A stretch of DNA of 64,000 bases from Rugalucina vietnamica (lineage: Eukaryota > Mollusca > Bivalvia > Lucinida > Lucinidae): positions 49,152,760-49,216,759 of the forward strand of contig OZ024873.1 in the NCBI GenBank assembly GCA_964017185.1, read 5' to 3'. Within the stretch, counting starts at the first letter, position 1. Each line of letters begins with the position of its first letter. The translations under genes were made by a program, and so were the position numbers. Of the stretch, positions 15,925 to 17,379 are shown piece by piece. The notes below the pieces were generated by a model. That model was given only the letters and a program-made list of their open reading frames with translations. It did no database searches and was not told the origin of the DNA.

Positions 15925-17187
15925 TCTGTCTTTTCAGCGATCATAAGACGATATCCTCTATGTCCACTGGGTTGTATGAGTTGCTCAGAGATGAATGGCT
16001 GTATTAGTTGTGGTCCTAACTTCTATATGTTACTTTCTTTTCAGCGATCATAAGACAATATCCTCTATGTCTACTGGGTTGTACAAGTTGCTCAGAGAGT
16101 TGCTCAGTTGTGTTAGTTGTAGTCTTAACTTTTCAGCGACCATAAGACAATATCCTCTATGTCTACTGGGTTGTACAAGTTGCTCAGAGAGTTGCTCAGT
16201 TGTGTTAGTTGTAGTCTTAACTTTTCAGCGATCATAAGACAATATCCTCTATGTCCACTGAGCTGTACAAGTTGCTCAGAGATGATGGTTGTGTTAGTTG
16301 CAGTCCTAACCTCTATATGTTTCTGTCTTTTCTGCAATCAAAGGACAATGCCTTCTATGTCCACTGGGTTGTACGAGTTGCTCAGAGATGAATGGCTGTG
16401 TTAGTTGTAGTCCTAACTTCTATATGTTACTGCATTTTCAGTAATCATAGGACAATATCCTCTATGTCCACTGGGCTGTACGAGTTGCTCAGAGATGAAT
16501 GGTTATGTTAGATGCAGTCCTAACCTCTATATGTTTCTGTCTTTTCAGCGATCATAGGACAATACCCTCTATGTCCACTGGGTTGTACGAGTTGCTAAGA
16601 GGTGAATAGATGTGTCAGTTGTAGTCCTAACTTCTATGTGTTACTGCCTTTTCAGCGATCATTGAACAATATCCTCTATGTCCACTGGGCTGTACGAGTT
16701 GCTCAGAGATGATGGCTGTGTTAGTTGCAGTCCTAACCTCTTTATGTTTCTGTCTTTTCAGCAATCATAGGACAATATCCTCTATGTCCACTGGGTAGTA
16801 CGAGTTGCTCAGAGATGAATGGCTGTTAGTTGTAGTCCCAACTTCTATATGTTACTAACTTTTCAGCAATCATAGGACAATACCCACTATGTCACTGGGT
16901 TGTACGAGTTGCTCAGAGATGAATGTTTGTATTAGTTGTGGTCCTACATTCTATATGTTACTATCTTTTCAGCGAACATAGGGCATCATCCTCTATGTCC
17001 ACTGGGTTGTACGATTTGCTCAGAGATGAATGTTTGTATTATTGTGGTCCTAACTTCTACATGCTACTGTCTTTTCAGCTATCATAGGACAATATCCTCT
17101 ATGTCCACTGGGTTGTACGAGTTCCTCAGAGATGAATGGCTGTGTTAGTTGAAGTCCTAACTTCTATATGTTATACTGTCTTTTCAG
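15925..17187 (+). repeat. Tandem array of R-spondin 3' splice site plus FU1 exon start (12 copies)
   Basis: Twelve head-to-tail copies of a ~106-bp unit precede the functional FU1 exon. Exon-like starts lie at 15938, 16045, 16137, 16229, 16336, 16442, 16549, 16656, 16762, 16867, 16973 and 17079; the real exon starts at 17188. Ten intervals are 105-109 bp and two are 92 bp. Each unit holds a pyrimidine-rich TCTTTTCAG acceptor and the start of the exon (CGATCATAGGACAATATCC). It ends at the FYMLL codons and runs straight into the next acceptor. The acceptor is intact in every copy except 16336 (CTG for CAG). No copy but the last has a 5' splice site, and some have frameshifts (for example a base missing near 16891). 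Splicing to an upstream acceptor would read into a stop. Confidence 0.9.
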
Positions 17188-17379
17188 CGATCATAGGACA
17201 ATATCCTCTATGTCCACTGGGTTGTACGAGTTGCTCAGAGATGAATGGTTGTGTTAGTTGCAGCCCTAACTTCTACATGCTGCTGGTTAGGAACGGAATG
17301 AGACAGACCGGAGTGTGCACACACAACTGTCCTACAGGGTTCTATGGTGTCAGGAGGTCCAACTTCAGCCAGTGCTATA
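17188..17379 (+). CDS. RSPO: R-spondin exon: furin-like repeat 1
   Basis: Acceptor TCTTTTCAG, donor A|GTAAGAAT. It encodes CPLGCTSCSEMNGCVSC, then the ligase-binding hairpin and NCPTGFYG. It is the only copy of the upstream tandem array with the 3' half and a donor site, so it is the functional exon. Confidence 0.9.

Follow-up and report, generated by a model that had tools for sequence, protein, structure and literature searches.

The window, the whole stretch of 64,000 nucleotides analysed here, carries an R-spondin gene on its plus strand, with exons for the FU1, FU2, TSP1 and basic regions that are all in phase 1:

17188-17379, plus strand: real FU1 exon, 192 nt, phase 1-1, followed by the donor GTAAGA at 17380
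30481-30630, plus strand: FU2 exon of 150 nt, phase 1-1 (boundaries and phase assigned by eye)
30962-31147, plus strand: TSP1 exon of 186 nt, phase 1-1 (boundaries and phase assigned by eye)
31714-32033, plus strand: last coding exon with the basic (Arg/Lys-rich) region and the stop, read by eye

The translated FU1 exon has its best PDB matches in RSPO1/RSPO2 chains (E 8.8e-16) and matches Pfam Furin-like_2 above cut-off (E 1.4e-18), in agreement with an earlier note on this DNA that had named the gene as R-spondin and the exon as FU1. The FU2 exon also matches Furin-like_2 above cut-off (E 2.4e-9), and the sole Pfam match of the TSP1 exon, TSP1_spondin (E 3.3e-9), scores 37.3 bits and stays under the curated cut-off of 41. 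By eye, the last base of the FU1 exon and the first two bases at 30481 form one codon, yielding the continuous FU1-FU2 reading expected of the family. A scan for the signal-peptide exon across positions 1-15930 of the plus strand gave no candidate at the first threshold and five weak ones after relaxation; this exon may lie beyond the window.

Several further elements surround the gene. An uninterrupted frame of 1119 amino acids at 39988-43344 (plus strand) encodes a non-LTR retrotransposon with endonuclease and reverse-transcriptase domains (Pfam Exo_endo_phos, E 6.3e-8, and RVT_1, E 1.3e-32). The broken frames at 8806-9732 (minus strand), with a reverse-transcriptase-like motif, SGVPQGSVLGPVLF, recognized by eye within 9405-9638, probably represent a decayed retrotransposon. 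An open frame of 285 amino acids at 7410-8264 (minus strand) matches the starch-binding domain CBM_20 (E 2e-11) and is possibly an exon of a neighbouring gene. The FU1-FU2 intron harbors two 43-bp tandem arrays (25217-25401 and 29829-29978), the units of which share ACAGACGTCTG when compared by eye and perhaps belong to one satellite family; six near-identical 40-bp tandem copies (96% match) are found at 44357-44595. Dispersed repeats with many partial copies in the window, on both strands and at 67-94% identity, are situated at 15302-15524 and 17879-18129, just upstream and just downstream of the array described below.

This array runs directly up to the real FU1 exon at its 3' end and is organized as follows:

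15910-15937, plus strand: presumed ancestral 3' end of the intron before copy 1, with the tract TCTTTTCTGTCTTTTCAG
15931-17180, plus strand: head-to-tail array of twelve copies, the unit joining TTTTCAG to the initial ~98 nt of the FU1 exon
16038-16221, plus strand: copies 2 and 3, 99% identical, each without 17 nt of the tail
16222-16859, plus strand: copies 4-9, including copies 4, 6 and 8 with common variants
16328-16334, plus strand: copy 5, acceptor lost (TTTTCTG)

Thirteen TTTTC(A/T)G heptamers occur in register, at 15931, 16038, 16130, 16222, 16328, 16435 and 16542 for copies 1-7, at 16649, 16755, 16860, 16966 and 17072 for copies 8-12 and at 17181 for the real exon. The copied exon starts accordingly lie at 15938, 16045, 16137, 16229, 16335 and 16442 (copies 1-6) and at 16549, 16656, 16762, 16867, 16973 and 17079 (copies 7-12). 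Copy lengths are, in order, 107, 92, 92, 106, 107, 107, 107, 106, 105, 106, 106 and 109 bp, and aligned pairwise the 13 units are 81-99% identical. The twelve tandem copies of a 3' splice site with an exon start reported in the earlier note are thus confirmed, as is the retention of CAG in all of them except copy 5; the unit length of ~106 bp given there describes the anatomy correctly apart from copies 2 and 3, which are shortened to 92 bp.

Chance similarity was rejected as a source of the array because of its blastn and Tandem Repeats Finder (TRF) scores. The consensus unit has 13 matches in the whole window with E values of 1.3e-29 or better and the next best match reaches 0.73, while TRF assigned scores of 1554 (period 107) and 1603 (period 213) to 16221-17279 and of 471 to 16037-16310. 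Tandem arrays are often misassembled in general, and an assembly or sequencing artefact would be one way to account for so many copies. We hold this to be scarcely credible here, as the copies differ by 1-19% with private substitutions and indels, unlike stutter errors, and the window does not contain a single N. It is also very improbable that a transposable or satellite unit present elsewhere in the genome was captured by, or seeded, the array. The window is indeed rich in dispersed repeats and other short arrays, but the unit is made from the splice site and exon start of the gene itself and continues into the FU1 domain, with no other copy found by blastn within the 64 kb.

Coding status and splice signals of the copies

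Entered in the phase-1 frame, each of the twelve copy acceptors leads to a stop codon, just as the earlier note had claimed. The stop lies 47-173 nt downstream, before the donor of the exon is reached; the real exon is open. Frame-breaking indels are present in eight of the twelve copies (2, 3, 4, 8, 9, 10, 11 and 12). The 51 distinct substitutions in unit columns 10-105 of the copies comprise 34 that alter the protein or introduce a stop and 17 silent ones, a silent share (33%) slightly above the 21-28% expected without constraint, which we count against our main reading. All five differences between the real exon and the array consensus in the repeated stretch are silent (chance 0.0004-0.0016; Fisher 0.007 against the 17 of 51 in the copies); two further differences, in columns 106-107, were left out as they lie beyond the edge of the repeated exon stretch. 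On the grounds of stops, frame-breaking indels and substitution patterns, the copies mutate as non-coding DNA, whereas the real exon is under protein constraint. Usable alternative coding exon starts were likewise considered and dismissed: every copy leads to a stop, and two thirds of the changes (34/51) are non-silent.

Two segments of this region are of particular relevance for splicing:

17152-17187, plus strand: acceptor region of the real exon with CCTAAC and tract, mostly the tail of copy 12; putative branch-point use
16549-16601, plus strand: copy 7, candidate 53-nt poison cassette with an in-frame TAA, followed by the donor-like GAG/GTGAAT at 16602

Splice sites were scored with matrices of approximate vertebrate frequencies, which rank sites poorly since the real donor scores only 0.04, a value matched by 9% of 703 intronic GTs. 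With the approximate acceptor matrix the real acceptor scores 4.2, and six of the eleven AG-bearing copies reach at least this value (one of them ties with it), so that acceptor strength alone fails to single out the real site. Judged by these scores, some of the copies are probably able to act as splice sites.

The exon start also carries the coding letters CCTAAC (Pro-Asn). In intact units, 26 nt separate these letters from the next acceptor; their distance to the real acceptor is 28 nt. A CTAAC-type motif is located 16-40 nt upstream of the real acceptor and of seven of the twelve copy acceptors (2, 5, 6, 7, 8, 9 and 12), six of which also keep AG. It is out of range for copies 1, 3, 4, 10 and 11. 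At acceptors 3, 4, 10 and 11 the motif is lost or too near, the loss of 17 nt of tail in copies 2 and 3 placing it only 9 nt from the next acceptor; copy 1 is instead preceded by the old intron end, where CTGTAAC is a possible ancestral branch point. The best branch-point candidate of the real exon resides in copy 12.

The statement in the earlier note that none of the copies has a 5' splice site holds for eleven of the twelve, in which no GT scores above -2.2 with the approximate matrix and which hence offer no good candidate for the 5' splice site of their own that characterizes a decoy or poison exon. It does not hold without qualification for copy 7. Its donor-like site is the sole GT in the copies that outscores the real donor and reaches 3.6 bits, about the 99th percentile of the 703 intronic GTs, with ~1.4 GTs of such strength expected by chance among the 136 examined (approximate matrix). 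Within the real FU1 exon, a further donor-like sequence, CTG/GTTAGG at 17286, coincides exactly with the right edge of the repeated unit and scores 2.1 as compared to 0.04 for the real donor, again with the approximate matrix.

Origin of the array and conservation of the copied acceptors

In the intron before copy 1, the left edge of the unit falls inside the pyrimidine tract (TTTTCTG/TCTTTTCAG); the right edge falls inside the exon (ATGCTGCTG/GTTAGG), and by eye CTG is present at both. A tandem duplication reaching from the pyrimidine tract of the pre-FU1 intron to ~98 nt inside the exon would have copied the 3' splice site together with the exon start, and the CTG microhomology may have served as trigger. 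Unequal exchange, partly in steps of two copies, could then have expanded the duplication to twelve copies. The tree of the units resolves only the pair 2+3, and mean identity is nearly flat with copy distance (87.0, 88.4, 87.0 and 88.4% at lags 1-4 without copies 2 and 3). Shared variants, which occur in blocks and in alternating copies, were therefore used to trace the history. Copies 4, 6 and 8 have variants in common at columns 42, 81, 91 and 102, and together with the TRF period of 213, which scored slightly above that of 107, this suggests a two-copy amplification step. Copies 1-4 share a letter at column 16, copies 1, 10 and 11 share letters at columns 73 and 82, and copy 11 and the real exon share letters at columns 96 and 100. 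Diverged head-to-tail copies with higher-order or mosaic structure, as in minisatellite-like arrays, are indeed present, and the array is best read as an old minisatellite-like tandem duplication across the 3' splice junction that was enlarged by unequal exchange.

The real exon may itself have taken part in such exchange. Columns 1-80 of the real exon do not differ from the consensus, and columns 81-105 contain every one of the five silent differences (P 0.0007-0.0016 given the possible silent sites, in a post hoc test), which is not explained by simple divergence and which we count against our main reading. The pattern is suggestive of an exchange between exon start and array that took place once the tail had diverged. 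Extended to a recombination reservoir, the idea would be that array-exon exchange repeatedly replaces the first ~80 unit columns and thereby homogenises or endangers the coding segment. The letters common to copy 11 and the real exon and the mosaic look of the copies, as seen at columns 73 and 82, point in this direction. We nevertheless regard such a reservoir as improbable: the post hoc test concerns five sites, the array consensus includes the real exon itself, the comparison is one without outgroup, and extra constraint on the exon start would yield the same pattern.

The earlier note had laid stress on the survival of eleven of the twelve acceptors, an outcome that neutral decay would also give. 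At the overall divergence from consensus of 7.6% (94/1244 cells), neutral decay would leave AG intact in 10.3 copies (P 0.46) and CAG in 9.5 (P 0.25), and retained AGs were discarded as proof of selection since the observed count of eleven is near this expectation. The heptamer TTTTCAG as a whole is less variable: one of its 84 cells is changed, as against 93 of 1160 cells in the rest of the unit (one-sided Fisher 0.009). Eleven of the twelve copies have it intact, compared to an expectation of 6.9 (P 0.013). Counting copies 2 and 3 as one, the only way in which copy kinship was handled in the conservation statistics, raises P to 0.021. Column permutation gave 0.04 by cells and 0.06 by distinct states. 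Four other windows of seven columns match the heptamer in conservation or exceed it, and the whole 3' splice module, i.e. branch-point region, tract and heptamer, has 24 of 326 cells changed versus 70 of 918 in the exon body. Taken together, these comparisons lean towards neutrality, and the low variability of the heptamer indicates that the acceptors may have been kept.

Low variability of the heptamer would be in line with a selected splicing brake, in which the many acceptors would sequester U2AF/U2 and channel a fixed share of the transcripts into stop-containing RNA, with copy number tuning R-spondin dosage. In favor of such a brake, all twelve acceptors lead to stops, and several copies equal or outscore the real acceptor and have branch-point-like motifs; it would resemble the regulatory decoy exons of OGT, the 3' splice sites of which bind U2AF according to passages of PMC12017769. 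On the other hand, AG and CAG survive as under neutrality, the 3' splice module does not surpass the exon body in conservation, four other windows equal or exceed the heptamer, five of the twelve copies have no CTAAC-type motif in range, and copy 5 has lost its AG. The OGT decoy exon, moreover, has 5' splice sites of its own in the passages of PMC12017769, for which eleven of the twelve copies do not offer a good candidate. We therefore consider the brake unlikely on this balance of sequence evidence. Of the three roles left undecided in the earlier note, dampener, poison switch and neutral expansion, the tests mostly favor neutral, non-coding DNA, with the heptamer test leaving room for a selected role.

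Expected splicing outcome and relation to known systems

Under exon definition the acceptor nearest to the donor should dominate, and use of earlier ones should result in unproductive RNA destined for nonsense-mediated decay. This expectation makes tolerated leakage the main reading and the selected brake its main rival. Once duplicated, the copied exon starts would have turned into intron, lost their coding constraint and mutated in a roughly neutral manner, all but one of them without a plausible donor. By chance, CCTAAC would place a branch-point-like motif in front of the acceptor that follows each intact copy, the real acceptor among them. Splicing of the upstream exon would probably be directed mainly to the last acceptor, as this one alone forms a normal-sized exon of 192 nt with the donor at 17380. 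Together with this donor, the earlier acceptors delimit exons of 301-1442 nt that contain stops, and nonsense-mediated decay would be expected to remove the transcripts arising from them. On balance, some leakage would be tolerated, perhaps with a mild drop in R-spondin output. In sum, we think it probable that a duplication across the 3' splice junction grew neutrally to twelve copies in front of a real acceptor that remains dominant, with the leakage being tolerated. That copy number, with coding letters used as branch points, sets productive R-spondin splicing and makes the array a length-variable rheostat on a dosage-sensitive Wnt amplifier is a doubtful proposition. Should the copies be used, variation in their number would have a direct, tunable influence on R-spondin output.

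The gene as such conforms to the RSPO family, which has the order FU1-FU2-TSP1-basic region with one exon per domain and phase 1 throughout; the array sets it apart. A survey from 2025 covers 1496 RSPO homologues from 430 species and mentions a third FU repeat in some fish RSPO3 proteins (PMC12111769), the words 'exon' and 'intron' having zero occurrences in its main text. Titles and abstract beginnings of the literature matches listed do not describe an R-spondin gene with such an array, nor do the passages of the papers compared here describe a dozen acceptor copies without donors.

Known decoy exons, as portrayed for OGT in passages of PMC12017769, have intronic acceptors that compete with the real exon and lead to a stop if used, and the acceptors of the array could act likewise. 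In the OGT case the decoy exon is equipped with donors and U2AF binding to it is reported, whereas eleven of the twelve copies lack a good donor candidate. Internal tandem repeats at exon-intron boundaries are also known from human segmental duplications, where they alter splicing (PMC2812944, in part). In the portions of that paper at hand they are variable, reside in recent paralogues and possibly create novel introns with transcript support, whereas any effect of our array on splicing is predicted.

Tandem duplication over a 3' splice junction is a known route to new introns. In Drosophila, novel intron positions have originated by tandem duplication followed by intronization of one copy, with stops inside the new intron, just as proposed here; the unit described in these passages (PMC2891723) lies within coding sequence and carries the proto-splice site AG/GY, whereas the unit of the array spans an old intron end. 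A tandem duplication across an intron-exon boundary led to intron gain in potato, and fission-yeast introns spanning two and four short duplicates are mentioned in the same source (PMC4974935, in part). The potato case comes close to the array: the duplicated segment comprises the end of an intron together with the beginning of the exon that follows, and the exonic part of the upstream copy turns intronic and inherits the 3' splice signals (PMC4974935, same passages). There, a single duplication gained the donor GTAAG and gave rise to a new intron, and the branch point stems from the old intron (PMC4974935, same passages); here, twelve copies have no general donor, and the branch-point-like motif stems from coding letters of the exon. 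The array suggests that a splice site can borrow branch-point-like motifs from coding sequence. With twelve nearly equal acceptors before one donor it also constitutes a natural experiment on spliceosome choice, in which the acceptor taken could be the first, the strongest or the one nearest to the donor.
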